Source of the DNA: Cloeon dipterum | Lineage: Eukaryota > Arthropoda > Insecta > Ephemeroptera > Baetidae | NCBI RefSeq assembly: GCF_949628265.1 | Contig: NC_088789.1 | Coordinates: 3,534,001 to 3,598,000 of the forward strand | Reading direction: 5' to 3' | DNA length: 64,000 nt | Part shown: in pieces, positions 9,106-53,335 of the stretch | How positions within the stretch are numbered: position 1 is the stretch's first letter | Layout of the letters: each line of letters begins with the position of its first letter | Translations under genes and position numbers: made by a program | The notes under the pieces: model-generated | What the model was told of the DNA's origin: nothing | What the model saw: the letters and a program-made list of their open reading frames with translations, nothing else | Databases searched by the model: none

Positions 9106-10465
9106 TTTTGTGTTTTAGAGGAAATATCGTAAACATACTTCTTACTAATATTTTTACTCGACCTGCTTAAACGGGAAACCACGAAAATTTATTTATTATT
9201 ATTTATTTGTAATGATTGGTCAAAATAAATTCTCTGCGAATGTGGATATATTGACTCAAAAACATCAATATCAGGTAAATGCTTGTATGTGCTTCCCGTC
9301 CCAGGACACCCTCAACACGGGGCGAGACTCCACAATTATGTTCTTTGGAAGCATAATATGCAGTTAGCAATAAAATCACTCTCCTTAAACTGTGATCCAC
9401 TGAACTACATTATTCAACAAGGCAAAATATATTGCCAACAATCAGTCATAATTATTACCAACTCGGCTGCTCAGGCGCGGCAGCGAGTTGGAATAACTTT
9501 GAGAATTTATAGAAATATTAATTGCCTCACTGCATGTGAGCAGTCCGAAATCGTTAGAATAAAATCTGCGTCTTGCTGGCCTGGCAAGAGCGCGCAACTA
9601 AATATTCTCAGCAATCTCTAAACTCAAATAGTCCAGTTTCTCCAAAAATTAGCAAACTATGAAAATTGCAAACTGATTGACGAATTAAACTCCTTTTTAT
9701 TAATTACGTTAATATCTTTATTTGAACTCTCTGCATTTATCAAATGGAAAAGTAGAAATTACACACTGCCGTTGAACTGCTTTGTAACATTGATTCATGA
9801 TGTTGATTTATTGGAACGTAAGTGACTCGATGCTCTTTGTGGTTTTGTAGTTAATATATTGTTTTTTCATTTCCATCATTTCCAATACACTTTAAAATTT
9901 GAGCATATATCCACGTAAAGCCCTAATTAATCGCAATTTGAGGATAATATTGAGAGCAAATTTAATCAATATTACTATCTATATTATTTATAAAATTATA
10001 ATGATAAATTAATAACTTAATAAAATCAAAGTCTTCTCATGAGCGCAAGAGAAACGCGCCAGAATTTGTGCGTGGCGCCAGCATCGCATATTTGCACCAG
10101 CGCGAAATTTAAGTTGCCTCTGGCCTCAGATTTTAAATTATTTACTAGCTTTCCACACGTGCCTTAACTCTGCAGTGAGCTAGCTATTCAGTTAAGGAAT
10201 TTTTTGTTATATTCCGCGGAAAAAATAGAGACTTTGTTGTGGTCAAGGGAAACGAAAAAATTATTAAATACTCCATGCAGAATCCAGCCTGATCCGAACT
10301 TTTGACTTCCACTGTACTTTTTAAAGATGGCTGCCTTTGTTTACCACCGCTGATGCTGACTGCTTCGAGCGGGCCAAACACAGTCTCAAATTGAAGAAGG
10401 TTATGTCGAATTTTTTACCCGAGTTGGAACAACTTAAGTGATTCAAGCTGGAGTCGACGTGCAAA
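9106..10465. other. Intergenic between M13 relic and msl-2
   Basis: This is a divergent intergenic stretch. Its first two thirds are the right copy of the inverted repeat. The remainder (about 9830-10465) is the likely msl-2 promoter and 5' untranslated region, with a GC-richer patch at about 10040-10120. I see no coding exon or RNA gene. Confidence 0.5.
9290..9830 (-). repeat. Right copy of the ~0.5-kb inverted repeat
   Basis: This is the reverse complement of 3872-4349. On its inner side (9290-9343) it extends into sequence shared with 8500-8578, so the full element is at least about 540 bp and the left copy is cut short by the GA tract. It carries the same internal hairpin, ccaactcggctgctcaggcg pairing with gcagcgagttgg. 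Confidence 0.75.
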
Positions 10466-12701
10466 ATGAACTCCACCAGCCTGTATGTTTCGACGTGCCG
10501 CGTGGTTCTCCAGGCGGACAGCGAAGATCCATCCAGCTGGGGAGACCTTTACCGGCTGGTGCCCTATCTAAGACAAAGTCTGTCCTGTACTGTCTGCGGG
10601 AATTTACTGATTGAACCTTTCACACCCACGGACACGAACTGTCAGCACCATGTCTGCAAGGTTCGACCACTCTACGAAGCTAAAATTAGTGCTGTCCGAA
10701 CTTTCCCACCAAAACATTTGCTCAAGGACACTTCCCATTCACTCCATTGTTTACATCACTTTCGATTTCACCCTTGAACTCTAGATGTTACATTTTTGGC
10801 AATTGTCACCGCGAAAACAAATATTTTCGCTACTTTTAATATTAATAAAAATTCCGAGAAATTGATACAAGAAATAGATTTTGTTTCTTATGGTTGACAA
10901 ATTCGTGGGGATAACTTTTTGTGTCTCTTTTTTAATGGTTTTGTGGATTAAATTCTCAATTTGTGGCTGATTTTTTTAGAAATAAATAATTTGATCTCAT
11001 TTTTCAGGGCTGTCAAGGAGGAAAAAAGAAATTGAAACCCTCCTGCGGCTGGTGTAAAAACTATGAAAAATACGTTGAAAACGTTCAATTGCGGATTCTT
11101 CTGCAGTGCTATAAAAAACTGTGCGAGTACATAACAAGCACATCGATATACCGAAAAATTGCATCCGCCATCCCCACCAATGGAGGCAGTTTAGTTGATT
11201 TAATCAACGAAGGTGCAGGTTTCAAGGTATGGAGCGCCTTATAGTTAAAACAACAAACGCCCTAACAAAGTTCAATTTTCCAGGACGACTACAAGAGTAC
11301 AGCTGGCCTTTCAAAGTCTGCATACAGCATCTTACCATGCGTGTACACAAGCAGTTCGACGCAGACCTCTGGGGCGATAGCAACGACACCCTCTGCCACA
11401 GCAGCCGTTTCTACTGCGGCGTCCACCAAAGTGGACACTCCTCCCCCCATTAAAACCGTCTCGAACGGCCAGTCGCTGTACTCAGTCATGTACGCCAGCG
11501 GTAACAAGATCACCATCAAACGAAAGGCGAGCGGCGAGCAAATTTTGCAGACAGCGCCAGCCGCGGCGACTACAGTGCTGCAGCCTGCCACCACCGCGGC
11601 AGCCACTGTCGCACAGACGCCCATGACGGTGGCCACTGCGCCGGTTGAGGTGACTGAGAACGAGTTCAAGAAGCCCAAACAAGTCAGCGTGGTAATGAAA
11701 ATTTAACATTATTTTTCTTGTTTTTTATTGAGATTTTTAAATGATAGGCGTTAGCGGTAACTCACATTATGTGCTCAATGTTTATCAGGTGAAATCGCCC
11801 AAACCGAAAACTAAGAAGAAAGGCTGCCGCTGTGGAAATGCAACAGCAACACCAGGGAAGCTGACATGTTGCGGGCAGCGATGTCCGTGCTATGTGGAAG
11901 CTAAAGCTTGTGTCGAATGCCGATGCAGAGGTTGCCGCAACCCTCATCGTCCAGGAGGCAAAAAGGTGAGCTCATGCAAATTCAAAAATTAAGCTTCTTG
12001 TCTCAGGTAAAATATTAATGCCTTCTCTTCCTAACTACGTCCTGGCATTTTATTTCATCTTTATTTTTCTGAATCTGGGAAGTCTCATTGAATGCAAAAA
12101 CATTTTATTTAAGCCTTTTCTTCTTTGTTCAGCAAACATAGATTTTATCCTATCTGTTAACTGCAATAATGCCTCTATTAAAGTCAAGTGAAAGAAATTG
12201 TTGTTGACCTCTTAAGGATTTCATTAAGCAGCACCAATCTGTTGTGGAAGTAATATTGATTGTATCATTCCACCTGTCTTGCTTTTGTAGGTGCGGCCAC
12301 ACATTCCCGAGCTCCATTCGATCCAGATTCACCTTCCGACACAGACGACTGGCCAGACAACAGCGGGTGCAGCTGTCAGCGTGGCCCAGCAGTTGACGGC
12401 CACGACGCATCACTTGCACAACACAAGTGGCGGCATGATGATCACAGCGAGCCCCAGCCGACAGCTGCACCAAATCGTGGCCACCAGCGTCGGCCACACG
12501 TCGACCATACTGGAGGCGAAGAATCTGCAGGGCCAGCAAATCTTAGGCGTGCACCCGCAGCTGGTATACGCACCCTCGTCCACTCTCAACCTGCAAAACG
12601 TGTCGAGTGTGTTGCCAGCAGCCTTGTTAGTGGGGGACGAGAAGTCTCCGTCGAACTCTGATTCAGAGACTGAGGACAGCGACGTGGACGTTGATGTGTG
12701 A
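10466..12701 (+). CDS. msl-2: MSL2-like E3 ubiquitin ligase (RING + CXC)
   Basis: Five coding exons, all in phase 0: 10466-10660, 11008-11226, 11284-11691, 11789-11965 and 12291-12701, giving 469 aa. The RING finger is split by intron 1: CTVCGNLLIEPFTP...CQHHVCK, then GCQGGKK and PSCGWC. It is followed by the MSL2-typical VQLRILLQCYKKLCEYI. Exon 3 is Ala/Thr/Pro-rich and low in complexity. Exon 4 is the cysteine-rich CXC DNA-binding domain (GCRCGNA, CCGQRCPCY, CVECRCRGCRNPH). The C-terminus ends in an acidic SDSETEDSDVDVDV tail. In Drosophila MSL2 is the male-limiting subunit of the X dosage-compensation complex; in other animals it is a ubiquitin ligase without a proven sex role, so the role here is open. 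It is shorter than fly MSL2 and nearer to vertebrate MSL2. Confidence 0.95.
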
Positions 12702-16900: not shown

Positions 16901-19900
16901 TAGGATCTGCAAGAAATTTAATACAATTAAACACAGTATTAAATATTATTAATGAATACAACTAGAGAGCATTTTTTCCTGTCACAGGAACTGGGAAATC
17001 AGTATTGAGTTGAATTAAACTTAAGAATTTTAAAGCTTACTGAAAAAAAATTTGGTCGCCCCCAGAAACCAGCTTCCCTTGTTTTACAAGACAAGAACAT
17101 TACCAGCATAGTCATTTTTGAGGAAGAAAGGCTCAACAGTGATACTCTGCTCTTTCGCTGTATCCTGCAGACCGCCTCTCAAATGGATTCCTTTGCCAGA
17201 CGTGCCACAAGTTATGTGGAAGCGAACATCTCGTTCACAAGCGTCTGCGTATTTACAGAGGTGGGCGAACGCCTTTTCGACTTGCAGCAAGCCATGTCCT
17301 TGGGCAAAATCATCAAGGTCCTCCATGTACTGGGCAGTGTTTTCAAGGGCCCTCTTCATACTGTATGGAGAGTATGGCAGCGAACGAGCTTTCATTCCAG
17401 AAACCAACAAAGCTGCGAATATTTAAATGGTCAGTATTCACTTAAAAAAAAAACTTGAAAATAATCACTCACCAACCGCGCCACACACGTGTGGAGCAGC
17501 CATGCTGGTGCCGTTCATGAGTTGGGTGCCTCTCAGGGTGAAAGCAGGCACAGAAGCGATGGCGCCTCCAGGAGCACAAATGCTGACGCCAAAATCGCCG
17601 TCCGTGGTTGGCCCACGAGACGTCCACGTGTATGGAGTGCCAGGCAGCTTTTTGCGCATTGAATATTCAGCTACCATCATGTCGGGAGACACGTAGGCGC
17701 CAACCCCAATGACAGCGTTTGTGCTTATGTCAGGAGGAGTGCTGATGGTGCAAAGGGCTGGTCCATTGTTGCCGGCAGAAGCAATCCAGATCACGCCGTA
17801 ATTGTTAATAACCTCATTCATCAGCTCACCAACTCGCCTTCAATAAAAAGATGTAAGCAGGAGGGAAGGAAAAACTATAGTGTATTTGCAGAAAACCCGC
17901 ACGTCATTCACAAACCATTTGTTATTTTTTGGTTTCAATTTATCATTTCTATTATTAACACCAAAATATTTAGTGGCATTGGATCTATTGGCTTTGGACA
18001 AAATAGACACGTAAATTATTCAGAGACGAGTTTGAATAATTTTAAATTTAAATTTTTGTAACTACTGGTGTGCTATCCACTAAACAACAAACAAATAAAT
18101 TTTATGTAGAGAAAAAATAGAACCAGGCTTCATTCCGTCGTTTTAATTCCCGACCAGTTTTGACGTCATCAAGTATGTCCTATTCATGAGGCAGTTGAGG
18201 CATGCTCCAAAATGGTCGAGATATAAAACGACGAAATTGAAACAACGATGATGAAGCCTGGTATTATTTTTTCTCAACATAAAAACAACCTCGGGGTGTC
18301 ACCTATTTCGAAATTTAAAAAATAAATTTTACTTGTCTGTTTCAATAATTTACGTGTCCATTTTGTCAAAAGCAAATAAATATAATACAGCGTTATAGCA
18401 TTAATCTGGCAATTATTTTACAGACTTCACTTCATGATATTATCAGTTATCAGCGCAGAAAATAGGCAAAATTTACAGATGTGGAAACAGGGTTGCATGT
18501 TTTGCTTACCACTCGGTTTTTCACCAATGGTTTTAAATGAATTATTACTACTCCAATTTTTTCCAATTTCTTGCATGCTAGAAATGAATTTATTCTGTAT
18601 TTACCCTGTGAAAACCTAAAATTTGCGGTCAGACTGGTGAAAATTTTCTTCTACTGTGCGGCTTTTTCTTTCAAACTGTCACTTGCTGCCTCATTTTCTC
18701 CAAAAAATTTTCTGACATTTTTTCAACTCAAGGTCATGAGCTAACAATTAGAAAATTATCAAAAACTGACTGAGGCGCAAGCATTGTCGGCAAGAAACTG
18801 GTAAAAATTGAAAAAAAAGGTTTTTATCACTGCACTGCATTTTTTTTAAATGCAGGTGTTTTGCAACCCTGTGTGGAAATCATTTTCGAATTGGCCCAAA
18901 AGTGCCTGGTGAACTTTTTTGTGAGTTATACAAATATTAAAATCTTGGAAATCAGCCACAAGAATGGGTGGTAGGAATATGCAAAATTAAATTATTTAAG
19001 CTGCTCTAAACTAGATTTCTTTTGTGATGTAAGGATTTAATCCTACCGACAATTAGAAATTATGTAACTCATTTACCCTGAACCGGACCAGTGGACATGT
19101 TCGCCATAACTCATGTTAATGACGTCTATGTGTCCATTCCACCCATCATCATCCTGAGACTCCTCTTTGCTCATAACTCGAGTCATGGCCCTCACCAAAG
19201 CAGTGCCAGTTTCCATTGAGCCCAGTCGGTTGTCACCTTTTCAATTGATATTTGTAGTAAAGAGTTTTAAAATTAGGATTTTAATACTAACCAATAGTAA
19301 ATGACACAATCTGTGCGCCTGGGGCAACACCATTTTTTTCAGGATTGTCAGGACAGTATGCAGCAGCAATTGAAGCGACATGAGTTCCATGGCTTGCTGC
19401 AATCAAAAATTTTTATTGGAGTTTGGGAGGAAATTTTCAAAACCTACAGCACATAGACACTATTTCCAAAGTGTTTCCTTTATCATGGAAATTAACGCTG
19501 TAGTGCAACTGATCAGACTTGGTCAGGGGAGCGAAGTCCCTAGTTTTCCTGAATGGACCCATGACCACGCACTTCTCCAAGTCTCCCTCCTCAGTTGTGT
19601 CAACACAAGCCCTGGAGACAGCAAAAATATTTAGATTGAATTCAGATGAGTTAGTTTTAAAATCAAATTTAATCGTGTTTTGTACAGGACAAACAAACCT
19701 CCACATTTCACCGTCATGAAAGACTACACAGTCATATGCAGGTCCGGGGTCGTAATACTTCTTCTCCATAGAGGCGAGTAACTCGATTTGAGTCTCATAG
19801 TCTTCCTTCATCAACTTGTCAGGTCCAGTTGGCTGAGGATTTTTCGCTTCAAACTCTTGTAGTTTTCTGGCAGCTTCGGCCTGAGCACTTTTATGGCCGG

Positions 19901-24901: not shown

Positions 24902-27256
24902 TTATTTGAAGATCTTTCCTTGATTGAACTTCCTTCCCTTGGAATCAGCGCCTGACCAAGAAAAGTATTCATTAACAAGTTTCTTAGTGTCTGGGCTGTT
25001 GGCATCCAGCTTAGTCCATTTGTAGCTCTCATAGTCCGTTTGCCAGTCAGGGCTTAGCTGCAAATAACATGGATGATATGAGTGACATTCTTCCAACCAT
25101 CACGAAAGATTAAATAAAGCTTTGTAATTAATTTCAGTATCCTTTTGGTTAATCAAAATCACAGACTTTCAAGATTAAAATTTTTCATCATTGCAATTAA
25201 TATGGTTAAAAACTTAAGTGCAATATTTTAAGATTACCTCAAAAGCAAGTTTTTGGCCTCTGAAAACCCAAATTCCAGAGATTGAGCTGTCGCCATCAGT
25301 GCCGAAGAGGCACACTGAGGCGAACGCATTTTTCTTCAGTTTCTCAATACGCTGGAACATTCCAGTGATGAGGTTGCAGCTCATGAAGACTTTCTCTAAC
25401 TCGTCGTTGTATTTGTATTCGCCAATCCAAATAGACCAGTTCTCCTTGTCGAGCTTTTCCCAGAAGAAGGGAATGGAAACAGACTCATCTTCATTTGAGT
25501 AACAACGCTTGAACTCGTCCAAGTTGAAAGTTCTGAAAATATTCAAAATTTATTTTAATATAATGAAATATATAAACATAACAAGTGAATAAGTGATTAT
25601 TTCAGTATCCTTTTGGAAATGAATCACTTGCAATCAATAGTGGACAAATTTGTCATCATTTAGTCAATTTCAAATGTAAAACTTTAAGACAAATATTTAC
25701 CCTGCAGGAATATCAGCAAAGGGGTCTTTCTGTTTGGGTTCAAGAGACAGGGCCTCATCGGCTGCGTCAGGCTCGTTTTCAGGCTCCTTCTCTTTCTCCT
25801 GCTTCTTCTTGGGCTCCTGTTTCTTGGGCTCTTTCTCAGACTCGCTCTTCTTCTGCTTCTTGCCACCCTCCTTCTTGGGCTCGGCACCACCACTCTTTCC
25901 CTGGAACTCGGCGAATTTCTTGGCGTCAAACTCGTCAGCAGTGTCGCAGAGTTTGAAGTCCTTGACAACAGCCTTGAACTGCGGCTGATTGACCAGGGTG
26001 GTGAACCAGCGGTTGACATTCTGGTAGGGCTTTCTGAAGTTGGCGTCGAGCACGAATTGGTACAGGTTCAGAAGGGAGGTGCTCACGGCAATGTCAGCCA
26101 GGGTGATACGCTCACCGACCAGGTACGTCCTGGTCAGCAGGTGGCTGTTCAGGGCTTGCAGCAATCTCTTCACGTCCTCCTTGGCACGGTCGGTGGATTG
26201 TTTGTTAAACTGCATGATACTAATTGCGGGGTAGACCCATGTGCAGGAGGCCGGCAGGATTTCGCTGTCGGCAAAAGAGAGCCACTGCTGGACCTGAGCT
26301 TGTTCCAGGTCACTGCTTCCGCGAAGCTGCTTGTTGGACACTGAAAATTAAGTGGAGATAAATTAACGCTCTTTAGATTACTTGAGACAACGGCAAGTTG
26401 GCAAAATCATAATCGTGTTTAGTATTTCACTGAATTTATTATTTTTTTAATTTTATCAAGGATTTGATAAAATTTCCAGACATTAAATTTTTTAAGTAAG
26501 GAAGTTTCCTCTAGTTCGATTTACAAGGAAGTATGGTTTAAATAGTAAAAATGTTTGAAGTTGATTTAGTCCCGTCCTAGTCAAGCAATTAGACTGACGG
26601 GGTGGAGTAATCATTTGATTTACCTCAAAGACTGAATTCTCATTCCATGGATTGGAAATGAAAATAATTTATGCTCTTTGAGGTTCTATAAATTTAAGCT
26701 AACAGAACCAGAGTAGATAATTCATTCCACTTACCATAAAAAGCAATGGCATTGCTCTCGCTTAAGAATTTACCATCGCTGGTTTCAAAAGCTGGGACCT
26801 GACGTGGAGGGAAGAGAAAAAAATTAATTCACCTGTCAGATATCGTTTACAAATGGCCTGTCTCTGCAGTTGCCACGTGTATTTCTGTCGCATTTAAGCA
26901 GATTGTATTCATTTTTTTGACTGGATTAACCACTGACCGGTTAGAATTAAGTGACTAGAACTGATCTGTTACCTTTCCAAGAGGGAATTTCTTCAGAAAG
27001 TCTTCCTTCTTGTTTGTTTCGCCGAAAACAAAAGCTGGATCGACCTTAACATTGGCACCGGAGTATTGTGCCGCAATCAACACTTTCTGGGCCCGAAAGT
27101 TGTCCGGATACGTGTAAAGTGTCTGAAATACCATACAAGCCTGTCAGAAAAATATGTAATGAAGACCACTGACTGCTCTAAAAGGCAGATTCTATCGTAA
27201 TTAGGGTGAAATTTTGAGATTTGAAGTTGACGGAGTAAACTTACTCCAGACGCCAT
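24902..27256 (-). CDS. EEF1G: Elongation factor 1-gamma (eEF1B gamma)
   Basis: Six coding exons (27256-27245, 27122-26973, 26798-26735, 26340-25701, 25532-25238 and 25057-24902) give 438 aa, against 437 in human. The N-terminal part is a glutathione-S-transferase-like fold ([30 protein letters not shown]-type [23 protein letters not shown]). A Lys/Glu-rich linker, about residues 215-275, follows. The C-terminal EF1G domain carries [31 protein letters not shown] and ends [11 protein letters not shown]. It anchors the eEF1B guanine-exchange complex that recycles eEF1A in translation. The first coding exon contains only 12 nt (MASG). A short 5' untranslated intron (ctct/gtgagt to cgcag/cc) is likely just upstream of the ATG. 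Confidence 0.97.
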
Positions 27257-36329: not shown

Positions 36330-39300
36330 TTACTTGGGACCAAGCATGTCCTCTGGTTTAACCCATTGGTTAAACTGATCTTCAGTCAGGTAGCCAAGTT
36401 TCAACGCACACTCTTTCAATGTCAGTCCCTCCTTGTGGGCGGTTTTGGCGATTTTAGCAGCCTGTTGTTAAAAACATTTCAAAAGATAAACAAAAACGTC
36501 CTAATAAAAAATACTACCTTGTCATAGCCGATATGAGGATTCAATGCAGTCACCAGCATCAGAGATTCGTGCAGTAACTTGTTAATTTGCTCGCGGTTTG
36601 CCACAATGCCGACGACACAGTTTGTAGTGAACGCATTCGCAGCATCACCAAGCAGGCGTATTGACCTGTTGCGATTGCAAATGAGATAAAAGGTGACTGA
36701 AAATAGAATAAACACAAACCTAAGAACATTGGCGACCATCATGGGTTTGAAAACATTCAGCTCAAAGTGGCCGTTGCTGCCACCGACAGTCACGGCAACA
36801 TGATTCCCCATAACTTGAGCAGCAACCATTGTCATGGCTTCACATTGCGTCGGATTCACCTTACCTGCAATGTCAAATGAGATTGTGGCATTAATTTCAT
36901 TTAATGTGCTGCAAACCAGGCATAATGCTGCTTCCAGGCTCGTTTTCTGGCAGGCTCAGCTCTCCAAGCCCACAACGGGGGCCGGACGCGAGGAATCTGA
37001 TGTCGTTGGCGATCTTCATGAAACTGCAGGCAATAGTGTTGAGGGCGCCGGAAACTTCAACCATGGCATCGTGGCAAGCAAGAGCTTCGAATTTGTTGGG
37101 GGCGGTCACAAAAGGAAGACCTGTAATGAAGAAAATAAATTTAATGACGAATTAGAAGAGCAAAAGGCACGGGTCAAGTTGAATTAATAGCAAAAAATAA
37201 CAAAATAAAAATATTCGGAAATATTAAACACAAAGGCTCACACATCATATCTTGGGAATATTTTCCAGGCTAATTGAAAGAAGTTAAAAAATAGCACTGG
37301 GTGTAAGAGACACAAACAAACACTTATTTTTTTAAATTTAAATAATTACGTCACCACTTAATGAGTGGAATATTTTGTGCTTGGGAAATTCATAAAATAA
37401 GAGAAGCCATCAATGGTAGAAATAAACCGTACTCAGGTTAAACTTTTGGTCAATGACATGCGATGACGTATTTTTTTGGTGTATTAAATCAGGATTGGGT
37501 GCAAATGAACATAATTTCAAAATTTCCTAACTAGCAGATGGGTTAAAACGTTCTTATTTCCAAAATAGTCCCTAAGAACCCACGAATGTTTTTTTATAAT
37601 AATTATATTTGCGAAGAACAAATTTCTAACAAAAAATTTTACAATTTTGCTAAACATGGGCCAAATCAGTTAATCAGCAGTAGCAAAATCCTAAACATGA
37701 ATTATAATTATTACAAGCATCAAAATCAAACCCCAAAGTAGTTATTTTTAAAATTTGTCTCCTTAGAAAATCATTATTGAAATCTATTGTTGGATTACAG
37801 TATATTATAGAAGTGTGATCAAAACATTACCAGTCAGTTCTGCCAGTTTATCAGCAACCTTCTCAGCAAAGCCTATTCTAGTGTTCAGGCCAGTTCCAAC
37901 AGCGGTTCCGCCTGCAGCCAGCATGTACAATCTGGGAAGGCAAGCGTTCACCCTCTCGATTCCAAATTTGATTTGCTGCACGTAGCCGCTGAACTCTTGA
38001 CCAAGAGTCAGAGGAGTTGCATCCTGTTTACAATTAAAATCACGTCAAACCAGCTCATGGAAGCCTGATTTGACATTTTTTACTTGGGTGTGAGTTCGGC
38101 CGATCTTGATAATATCTTTGAACTCATTGGCCTTCGCGTCCAGGGAATCGTGAAGAGCTCTGAGGCCAGGAACCAGGGTCTTGTGCAGCTCCACAGCGAC
38201 AGCGACGTGCATTGCAGTAGGGAAAGTATCATTGGAGCTCTGCAAACGCGTTTCAGTTCAGGAAATGACAAGAGTACGCTGGGGAAATGTACCTGGCTCT
38301 TGTTCACGTGGTCGTTGGGGTGGACGGGAGTTTTGCTTCCAAGTTTTCCTCCCATGATTTCGATAGCCCTGTTGCTGATGACTTCGTTTGTGTTCATGTT
38401 GGTCTGGGTGCCAGAACCGGTCTGCCAAATCACAAGGGGAAAGTGGTCCTTGTACAATTTGCCGCTGATGACTTCATCTGCTGCCTGGCTGATGGCATCC
38501 GCCACCTTGGGGTCCAGACCGTAATCCTTGTTGACCAGGGCTGCTGCTTTCTTCAGCATGCCCATGGCGGTCACAACGGGCACCTGAAAATGCACTTTGA
38601 GTAAAAAAGGATTTTCTAGAACAGAGGTTTTACAGGCATTCGCTCGGTCTCGCCGCCAATGGGAAAGTTCATCACTGAACGAACTGTCTGAGCTCCATAG
38701 TATTTCTCCACCGGAACTTTCAGTTCTCCAAAGGTGTCCGCTTCAATACGGTACTTCTCCTGGAATTACAGAAAAGTTTTAGAATTTTTTGTTTTAAATT
38801 TGGTGTTTAGTAAGGTTTATTAAGTTTTTGGCAAACGACTCTAGGCTAGTTGTCACTCGCATCTTTCACTTAGTTTTAAACATGCATTTATTTCTGTGTG
38901 CAAAGATAATAGTGTCGGGGTGGTGGATGAAAGAGTTTTTTCTACAAATATGAAAAATAAATAAATTATTATAATATAATGTATTTTGTACTTTACTGAA
39001 CTTTAAATATGTTAGGTGTCCAATTGAAATAATAATTAAAAGTCAAAAAGAAATAGATTATAAATAAGTCAAAGGGGGGGGGGGGGAGAAAGAAATTTTT
39101 TTCCTTAACGTAATACATTATCGACTTTGGATGGCTGTTGCAATGTTGTGCTTTGATAAGAGAGGTTGGGGCACTTATTAAATCAATTCCATTATCAAAT
39201 CTTTCGTCTAAAACCGGATCCGTTCTCGGCTCATTAAGATGGATCAAGAGCAGAAGAGCGCAGGCTACCAGTCTACAGAATCATCTTTCACCGTTTAGTA

Positions 39301-49364: not shown

Positions 49365-52300
49365 CTAAATGTTGCAATTCATGCAGGCCGACGACTGCGT
49401 CGAGGTATCCGTCACCTTTTGCGAATGCTCCTTAATGTACTCGTGAATAATAAAGGGGGCGCCCCCGTATTCCTTTCTGCTCTCAGGGCTAGAGGTACTC
49501 CTTGCTAACAATCCTCTGTAACGAGAACATGATGGGAATGCATAATTAAAAGTCTTATCGATCACGGTCTTTTTTCTTTGGCCAAAGTGGATAAATTTTT
49601 TAATTTATATTTTATTCAAAAATCCATAAATTCATGTGGATAGATGCCTATGATGGCAGAAGCACGCGAAGTGATCATAATTTATAAGCTTATATTTGTT
49701 AAAAATAATAATTTAACAGGCCTTTTAAATTTTATAATTTACAATATGAATACTTAAAATACGATATTTAACAGAAACATGGAAGCTATAGTCTAGCATT
49801 ATTTCACAAACAAAACTTTCTTCCATTTGATTTCATTTGAATTACCTTGCGACTGCGGTGAAGGCCAAGTCGACATTCAGTCCTGATTTGGCTGAGGTTT
49901 CAAGGAAGATGACATTGTATTCACGAGCCAGCCGCTCTCCCTCTTCCCTCCTGATTTTCCTGTTCTCGCAGTCAGCCTTGTTTCCTGCAACACGCAACAC
50001 CACCTCAGGAGTAATTTAATTCGCCGCCGCTCGCGTGTTATCATCGTCTCGTACCCAAAAGCAAAATAACGACGTCGTCTTGTGCGTACTCTCGAATTTC
50101 GCCGAGCCAAGCCCTAATATTGTCAAAGCTTGTTTTGTTTGTGACATCGTACAGCAGCAGCAGGGCTGAACAAAGAGAAGACGTGAGTAGGGAGAGAAGA
50201 GGAGGCTCCAACAAATAATTGTGTTTATATAAATATGTATATATTTACCGTGAGCATCTCTATAATAGGCATGGGTTACGCTGCGGAAACGCTCCTGGCC
50301 TGCCGTGTCCCAAATTTGCAGCTTCACCATTTCCTCATCCACCGTGACTATTTTGCTCTGCAAATGACACATGCACGTTTCAGAGTGGAGGCTTTTTAAA
50401 TGAACACACTATATAACATGACGCCTGCACGACACGAATTATGCAACCAGCAACGTAAGCACGACACGCAGGTGGCCTATCAACAGAAACAGCAGGCGCT
50501 CTCGGCGGTCTCTCACCCGAAAGTCGACCCCGACGGTGGAAATATAGCAGCCGTAAAGGAATCGGCCGTCTTGGAAGCGAACGAGCAGACACGTTTTGCC
50601 GACTCCGCAGTCGCCCAAGAGAAGCACCTCCGGAAACGAGAGAAATCATTTGGGACCGTTTAGACGCCGGACGTGCTGGGAATTAGTATTAAAAAAAACC
50701 TTTGCGGTGACGGAGCATTGCGGCAACCCGACCAGAATGCCGCTCTGCTGTCCAGGCGCTTTTTCGGCCGGACTGCTGCGCACGGAACCCGACCTCGGAC
50801 TTCTTTGCAACGGACTCAACGGCTCCATTCTTTCTCTCTGTCTGTCTCGCGATCAGCCCAATTCACTGCAGTTTCAAAACTAATTAACTTTCGAGATCGT
50901 ACGTCTCTTTTTCTATAGCAAGCAAAGTGGTTGCTTTTGATTGATTGCCGATCGAGTCTCACAGTGAAAATGTGTGTCAAAGCGAGAGCAGCAGGGAACA
51001 AAGGTAAGCCGCGAATGCTGTTGGACTGTGCTGTTGTGCCGACCGACTATATAGAGAGGGTGGAACAAACGAGCACCTGTCTGGAAATGATTGGGCCTAA
51101 AAATAAACTGAGGACCACCGCGCTCTCGCACTGGGAGCGCCTGCGTCTCCTGAAGGTCACCATAGCAACAGGTAGACCGATCGCGCGATATGATTTGTGC
51201 AAATCGTCGTGCGCTAATCAATTATTAACATATCGCACGCACCCGTCGATAAACTCACTGCTCGTGGTGCGTAAGAGAGTTCTTTCCACCGTGAAATTAG
51301 CTTTTTCCCTTGCTAAAACCCCCTCGACCGATAATTTTTTTGAGCGCGTGTGTGCGTACGTCATCAACCCAACGTGACCTGGGAGATAATTGCTGCGTAA
51401 CTCCTGCAATTGGCAGCTGATAATTAGAGATCTGTTGATGAATATGAGTGTTTTTTTTATTTTTCTTCCATAGAGTGGAATTTTTGTTGATAATTAATAA
51501 TCAAGAGGTTTAGGTTAAGTGGGATAATTGGAATATGTTGGAATTTCACGAAATTCTGTACCAATTTTGTCGTTATTGTTGATAGAAAAAGAAATAACAG
51601 CCAGCAATCATACAGGATATTTCAATTTTAAGATTTAAAGATTGTGTTTTTTGGCCTTTTGAAGTGATGAAGGATAAAAATAGATCTATTGATGGTGAAA
51701 ATATTGTCAGATCAAGACAGATAGCAATTTCAACAGCAGCAATAGTAAATTTTTGTTTGCGTTTCCGAGCTTATGAGTTTTGAGTTGATTTTTCCGTCCT
51801 ATAAATTAGGGGTTGGTAAATACCTATATTTTTGAATTATACATATAATTCCAGGGTTCGTAAAGATATGCTGTTAATTTTCATTTGCAAAGCTCAGAAA
51901 AAAATCACAGTTTGACATATATAATTCACAAGTATACCAATTAAATCAAATCCTTTCAACAATAAAACAGGTTAAGAATTTTTTAAATGCTGAATAAATT
52001 CCCCAGTTAAAGGGTTAAATGTTTTCTCCATTTGTTTCAATATCTTTAAAAAACATTATTTATCCTTCTAAAGGTATTTATTATTTCATAATAACTCCCA
52101 CGTGAGCGGATAAATTTGGATATTTTCTTCAATTTAATTTGCCGCTTTGGCACCTTTGAAAATACGAGGCCATAGAGAATCTTTCAGGACGAACGCTGCG
52201 AGGCAACAGCGTGGCAATCCCCGCCTCCAGCCGCCTTTTCTTACATCAGGGTATATGCAAGCCCTGGAACGATCTGCCACCGATTTTTAAAGATTGCGAC

Positions 52301-53335
52301 GCATCAAAATTTTCATCCCTGTGCGAGCAGTTTTTGTGTTGTAATTTTTAAAGTGTTTGCGATGTAATTTTAATTTATTAACTATTCCACAGTATACGTG
52401 ACAACGTTGAATCAACTTTTTTTCGCGCGTCCATGCAGATCCTGCTTGTACTTGTAATTTTTATGCCTTTCATGCAGAGAATTCGCCAATTTTGCAATGC
52501 GAAAAATGCACCACTGGGTTTCGCGCAAAAAACCAGTTGGAAAAACCACCAGTTTTGGGTTTTCCACATTTTTCCGAATTTGACCTAGCTAAGGTCACAT
52601 TTCGCGCCACACAAGTCATAAATTTTGGAAAATCACGATGAATGTTGCAATTTTTCTTCAATAAAAATGCATATATGTTTCGGAAAAGTGCGCGAAAAAA
52701 CATTTTTTTGCAATGCAGTGTTTTTTTTCGGAAAAATGCTGGTTTTTGCTAACCCTGCTTTAATATTTATGTAATTCTATGATTCTATTTTCTGATTGTA
52801 CTATAAATATAAATCATGAGCAACAAACACCAATATTTCAACTTGAAAAAAGTAATTTGAATTAAAAATCCAAATTAAAAATAATCATACCGTAAATCCA
52901 ATCCCGACTGTTGCCGAAAAGGTACCAGCCTTGAACATTCCTGTGTCAAACTGCACGAGCAGGGACGTCTTCCCTACGCCGCTATCTCCCAGCAGTATTG
53001 TCTGAAGCATTATAAAAGCAGACAAATTTGAGACTGGCAAATATAACAATAAAAATATTACAAACAATTAGAGGAGCGTTAGTTTGCCTTTTAGTCAGGA
53101 CAAGCAAAAAGAGGCTCACCTTGTGCACAGGTGCGTGGTGTGCGGCCGCTGCGGCTGACGTGGGGATGAAGGCCTCGGTGGGGACGACGTAGCCCCGGTA
53201 GCCCGTGGGCGAGGGCACCCGGTCCGAGGTGCCGATGGGGGCGTTAAGGTAGCCCACAGGGGTCGGCGGCTCCTCTTCGTCCGGCGACTCGAAGACGTCG
53301 TCGCTGAAGTTGTCCGCGTCCAAAGTCGACGCCAT
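49365..53335 (-). CDS. RAB26: Rab26-like small GTPase, two alternative 5' modules
   Basis: Isoform A exons are 53335-53120, 53001-52891, 50357-50249, 50165-50055, 49984-49846 and 49515-49365 (278 aa). Isoform B replaces the first two with 50828-50700 and 50627-50517 (249 aa). Nucleotide-binding motifs are GDSGVGKT (A) or GDCGVGKT (B), [27 protein letters not shown] and ETSAKSGLN. The switch II-to-alpha3 run and the tail HEYIKE resemble the Rab26/Rab37 group, whose members act in regulated secretion and synaptic-vesicle turnover. Isoform A has an acidic, Pro-rich 72-aa N-terminus. The C-terminus ends ACMNCNI rather than in the double Cys usual for Rabs. It is convergent with LPGAT1 and divergent from Pc. 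Confidence 0.92.
50517..50627 (-). other. Rab26 alternative P-loop/switch I exon (module B)
   Basis: A 37-codon exon with acceptor ccggag/gtgctt and donor cgg/gtgaga, phase 0 at both ends, reading [12 protein letters not shown]...[10 protein letters not shown]. It has the same length, phase and domain coverage as the exon at 52891-53001 but only partial identity, which implies an old tandem exon duplication. The sequence is closer to the canonical Rab26 pattern (STVGxDFR) than module A. Confidence 0.85.
50700..50828 (-). other. Rab26 alternative first coding exon (module B)
   Basis: An ATG-started 43-codon frame, [15 protein letters not shown]...CSVTAK, ends at a GT donor (gcaaag/gttttt) in phase 0, 72 nt before the module B P-loop exon. 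TAK followed by VLLLGD matches the usual FKVMLVGD strand of Rab proteins. The surrounding 50640-51000 region is GC-richer, consistent with an internal promoter. The donor after the GT is T-rich and not ideal. Confidence 0.6.
52160..52351 (+). pseudogene. 3' relic of a non-LTR retrotransposon ORF
   Basis: A 63-codon open stretch reads [16 protein letters not shown], then [19 protein letters not shown] and ends CCNF-stop. WNxLP followed by a Ser/Phe/Lys-spaced tail is the usual ending of LINE reverse-transcriptase ORFs. Nothing upstream of 52160 continues the frame, so it is a 5'-truncated fragment inside the Rab26 intron between the two modules. Confidence 0.6.
52480..52758 (-). repeat. hAT-like MITE fragment
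   Basis: On the minus strand it starts CAGGGTTAGCAAAAACCAGC, the same CAGGGTT start as the elements at 18488 and 46384. Its inner part (aaatgtgacc...ggaaaacccaaaactggtgg) matches the block at about 1830-1950. The far end and a target-site duplication were not found, so it is probably truncated. Confidence 0.6.

Follow-up and report, generated by a model that had tools for sequence, protein, structure and literature searches.

In vertebrates, RAB26 and RAB37 are encoded by two genes, apparently with the same 37-codon exon as the gene studied here, and RAB6A / RAB6A-prime is a case of a Rab gene in which a duplicated exon is used alternatively. Tandem duplicated exon substitution events are a broader class, in which homologous exons are swapped and the rest of the protein is unchanged; no Rab was found among them in the accessible part of that source (PMC9741552). 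Variation at the 5' end has been described for two relatives of the gene studied here: Drosophila rab26 is described as having a start codon in each of its first two exons (ATG1 and ATG2; PMC8016483), and human RAB37 has isoforms with N-terminal splice differences (PMC9714508), so that, by analogy and from the accessible text of both papers, alternative 5' ends are usual in the Rab26/Rab37 group. The fly gene encodes the same Rab from two starts, and an alternative P-loop exon is not mentioned in the accessible part of that description (PMC8016483). In the open-licence literature, as far as its accessible text extends, we found no report of a second P-loop/switch I exon in human or other vertebrate RAB26 or RAB37, and no description of paired P-loop/switch I exons in any Rab. 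Duplicated exons used exclusively form a known class (PMC9741552), while a Rab with a duplicated P-loop/switch I exon is apparently undescribed in that literature.

The window analysed here, a stretch of 64 kb from Cloeon dipterum, contains a Rab26-type gene on the minus strand between 53335 and 49365, with two upstream exon sets, A and B, and one common set of four downstream exons:

53120 to 53335, minus strand: exon A1, ATG and 72 codons, assigned from translation; variable N-terminus, last residue Lys, phase 0
52891 to 53001, minus strand: exon A2, 37 codons in phase 0 at either end, P-loop GDSGVGKT, SATVGIGFT in switch I
51027 to 51053, minus strand: candidate core promoter for B, with TATATAG (51053) followed by ACAGTC, which is initiator-like and has its A at 51027; a consensus match only
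50700 to 50828, minus strand: tentative exon B1, ATG and 43 codons, last residue Lys, phase 0; alternative end at 50733
50517 to 50627, minus strand: exon B2, 37 codons in phase 0 at either end, P-loop GDCGVGKT, ISTVGVDFR in switch I
50249 to 50357, minus strand: exon 3, common to A and B, switch II
50055 to 50165, minus strand: exon 4, common to A and B
49846 to 49984, minus strand: exon 5, common to A and B, NKAD and ETSAK
49365 to 49515, minus strand: exon 6, common to A and B, C-terminus CMNCNI and stop

The four upstream stretches translate exactly as given in the initial annotation, and its claim that both P-loop exons are 111 nt long, in phase 0 at both ends, and lead into the same exon 3 is confirmed by in-frame joins: A1 and A2 joined to exons 3-6 give a product of 278 aa, B1 and B2 one of 249 aa, with B2 and exon 3 only 159 nt apart. 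With equal length and compatible phase, A2 and B2 are neighbouring homologous exons, separated by an intron of 2263 nt, and they are the only Rab-like P-loops in the window; a third match to the P-loop motif, at 51323, is followed directly by a stop codon and was rejected. The RAB6A exons differ in few residues, near switch II, whereas A2 and B2 vary across the P-loop and switch I. The locus also departs from the tandem duplicated exon substitution events, in that the second copy, B2, may have a first exon and a promoter of its own.

Elsewhere in the window, Pfam matches mark a MSL2 RING finger exon at 10442-10777 on the plus strand (PF16685, E 4.9e-11) and, on the minus strand, a subtilase exon at 17465-17839 (PF00082, E 7.8e-16), which looks to us like tripeptidyl peptidase II, a GST C-terminal domain exon at 25697-26347 (PF00043), which we take to be elongation factor 1 gamma, and a Lyase_1 exon at 38080-38742 (PF00206), presumably fumarase. 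Another Rab-type gene, with the P-loop GELGTGKTS and the motif IGVDF, lies about 34 kb past the end of the window (G000, C4:3631615-3632723, minus strand).

Both forms can be assigned to Rab26. When a 157-aa chimera carrying either A2 or B2 was searched against the PDB, human Rab26 (2g6b) was the best match in both cases, with 239 and 255 bits; next came Rab8A with 168 and 179 bits, a lead of about 70-76 bits. The two products match the Ras family of Pfam (PF00071) with 189 and 194 bits at a cut-off of 21.6. By eye, the Rab motifs KLQIW and RFRSVT are exact and YYRDA and LLYDVT are near matches, while the first Rab motif reads VGVDF in B and VGIGF in A, where the acid is missing. The C-terminus common to both forms, CMNCNI (window 49365-49385, minus strand), has two cysteines that might be prenylated, but in neither of the usual Rab endings, CC or CXC. 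Like human RAB26, both forms have a one-residue insertion before switch I, a mark that comes from the present analysis rather than from a paper: the exon has 37 residues in A2, B2 and human Rab26, and 36 in all eight of the other Rab exons compared. These eight are all the other fetched sites of the genome with the P-loop and the first Rab motif in one frame; the site C2:17113976, where the frame starts inside the P-loop, was left out.

In the 190-Mb genome, the best non-self match of A2 is B2 (57% over 35 residues, E 5.3e-6; the next match has 1.6e-3), and the best non-self match of B2 is A2 (E 2.9e-6; next 1.3e-4). Since each is the best non-self genome match of the other, the pair is not a chance resemblance; together with the equal length and phase and the common insertion, the reciprocal matches place both exons in the Rab26 lineage, as descendants of one ancestral exon. 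We regard it as near certain that the A2/B2 exon pair is real. Among 128, 11 and 18 genome matches, we found no second case of two P-loop exons on one strand, within 20 kb of each other, that would fit one gene, although such lists can miss a partner exon, as the 128-match search missed A2 itself. One candidate pair, C4:26214182 and C4:26226155, 12 kb apart, was rejected because the second site holds the whole domain in one exon. Scans for relatives gave 1 locus in viral contigs (L009) and 54 loci in prokaryote genomes; the one inspected among the latter (L060) appears by eye to be an intron-containing Rab11 from a eukaryotic contaminant, and was set aside.

That the switch I sequences of A and B clearly differ, as had been noted before, is borne out: 20 of 37 residues are identical between A2 and B2, and 17 differ. 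The differences amount to a pS of 0.78, which is near saturation, and a pN of 0.34, values from one pair of 37-codon exons, a small sample that on its own is compatible with recent decay of one copy. With synonymous sites nearly saturated and both frames open, the exon duplication looks old and both copies look constrained. B2 agrees with human Rab26 at 28 of 37 residues and A2 at 24, which makes B2 the conventional form of the two, with A2 more derived. In a three-way comparison with human Rab26, nine positions are changed in A2 only and five in B2 only; one change is common to A2 and B2, and three positions differ in all.

Four of the nine A2-only changes fall at exon positions 29-37, where ISTVGxDFR becomes SATVGIGFT; relative to the human/B2 form, A2 carries S for I, A for S, G for D and T for R. 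At the fourth place of the first Rab motif, D or E is found at 18 of 19 Rab sites of the genome, and G at A2 alone (a loose pattern gave 22 matches in the fetched loci, and three without Rab context were dropped). According to the accessible part of PMC6548291, the same place is one of the four residues through which switch I of Ypt1 contacts GDI, and it holds Ala in Rab5; the accessible part of PMC3919270 contains nothing on this residue, and PMC3303723 gave no matching text. The D-to-G change in A2 is thus suggestive, and, given the Ala of Rab5 at the same place, not decisive.

The picture is less uniform at the 5' end of module B. Scored with a matrix of textbook frequencies, the B1 donor (AAG|GTTTTT) reaches 0.8 bits, which is the 68th percentile of the 3173 GTs on the minus strand and makes it the weakest of the seven donors of the gene; the six others score 4.7-10.9 bits, with the A1 donor (AAG|GTGAGC, 10.9 bits) the strongest and the B2 donor (CGG|GTGAGA, 9.4 bits) also strong. 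A better phase-0 donor for B1 lies at 50733, with 4.0 bits. The B2 acceptor, CCGGAG, has a G at -3 in place of a pyrimidine. In codon usage, trained on 2254 codons from Ras-family matches, A1 has the highest score of the gene (0.90, in its own frame), while B1 is without signal: out of 2200 stop-free stretches of the window matched for GC, 53% do at least as well. The 72-nt gap between B1 and B2 contains an in-frame TGA, and would therefore need to be spliced. A search between 52890 and 50630 for a better first exon for B2 found none: no frame opened by an ATG there leads to a phase-0 donor scoring at least 6 bits. Taken together, B1 with its end at 50700 is a tentative exon.

Upstream of B1, the TATA-like box at 51053 is followed 26 nt on by the initiator-like site, a combination for which a loose rule gives 45 matches on the minus strand and 36 on the plus strand, 81 in 64 kb. 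GC content rises to 0.48 over the 400 nt that precede B1, though 38 of the window's 318 tiles are as high, and CpG observed/expected in the leader is 0.99 vs a window median of 0.90, so that neither GC nor CpG singles out a B promoter. A separate promoter for B is nevertheless plausible. The B leader, 51030-50829, is free of ATG. The A leader contains a short upstream ORF, ATGGGGATGAGCTGA, at window positions 53376-53362 on the minus strand, some 40 nt ahead of the start of A1. With an upstream ORF in one leader and about 200 nt without ATG in the other, translation of the A and B forms could be under different control.

The initial annotation read the locus as two complete 5' modules. What holds of this is the pair of P-loop/switch I exons with a common remainder; the N-terminus supplied by B1 is weak, considering its donor, its codon usage and how common promoter-like matches are, and we put two complete modules at about even. 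The most serious alternative is that of classic mutually exclusive exons, in which A1 is the sole N-terminus and is spliced to either A2 or B2, with B1 a chance ORF in the intron. The initial annotation did not list this case of a shared A1 with A2 and B2 alone alternating, though the phases allow it. The A1 donor is the strongest in the gene, and the exon closes in phase 0, so that A1-B2 would be in frame; A2 and B2 match in length and phase, as is typical of such pairs; and the poor donor and codon usage of B1 would find a simple explanation. It would, however, leave a 2263-nt intron in which the sequence directly before B1 is rich in GC and free of ATG, and a B1 that, like A1, ends in Lys, here 72 nt before B2; moreover, the B2 acceptor, atypical at -3, would have to compete with that of A2. 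We consider this reading somewhat unlikely, though worth keeping in mind.

The weak B1 donor and the atypical B2 acceptor would also fit a relic B2: an exon copy of long standing that has fallen out of use, in a gene that makes only A-type mRNA. In the fly, only products with predicted masses of 41-45 kDa are given in the accessible part of the description (PMC8016483), which is in line with such a relic, and a short B-like form is accordingly not among the products described there. Against this, the B2 frame is open, its P-loop intact and its donor strong despite a pS of 0.78, and B2 resembles human Rab26 more closely than A2 does; long disuse would have erased frame, P-loop, donor and Rab26 likeness alike, and we hold a relic to be quite improbable. 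That module B was assembled from another locus had been raised in the initial annotation as a possible refutation; matching P-loop or downstream exons were not found elsewhere in the genome. The window lies within one contig of 36,396,660 bp, in a genome of 190 Mb in 10 contigs, with no sign of local misassembly, and B2 and exon 3 are close neighbors in frame. Nor is there a second Rab26 gene in the genome: among the matches listed, none outside the locus is above 63% identity, and, with the window inside one 36-Mb contig, module B is not the 5' end of such a gene. With nothing found in its favor, an assembly or duplication artefact is extremely unlikely.

We thus think it probable that this is a single Rab26-type gene in which the P-loop/switch I exon was anciently duplicated, and which encodes two alternative GTPases. 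An internal duplication long ago would have been followed by divergence of the copies, with B2 staying conventional and A2 becoming derived. Two expressed isoforms from the one gene are likely, and each mRNA would carry one of A2 and B2, since a transcript with both would encode tandem P-loops. As joining A2 to B2 keeps the frame, and would give two P-loops and no nonsense signal, exclusion would have to come from the choice of start site or from competition between splice sites. We favor an internal promoter near 51 kb, with B transcripts presumably starting at or near B1, because alternative 5' ends have been reported in the Rab26/Rab37 group. The two GTPases would be identical in switch II, the remainder of the G-domain and the C-terminus, and would differ in the first switch. 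GKT and the switch I threonine are kept in both A and B, so both forms should bind and switch nucleotide, while the four differences between A2 and the human/B2 form in the switch I region predict that they should differ in their effector or GDI/REP contacts.

We may speculate one step further, to a reading that we regard as unlikely, a little more so than a shared A1: that two promoters let one gene do the job of vertebrate RAB26 and RAB37, with the A switch I binding other effectors or evading GDI recycling. Promoter B would then give a conventional Rab and promoter A a Rab without the acid in its first motif, and transcription alone would pick the membrane cycle given to the same C-terminal address.

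According to the accessible part of PMC8016483, a rab26 null was obtained in the fly by removal of the first exons. In insects with the same arrangement as here, a B form would escape both a null of this kind and an antibody against the N-terminus of A. Should both forms be produced, a single Rab gene would exchange its nucleotide grip and the switch that faces effectors but retain its membrane-targeting end, and the locus would be a natural domain-swap test of the contribution of switch I to Rab identity.
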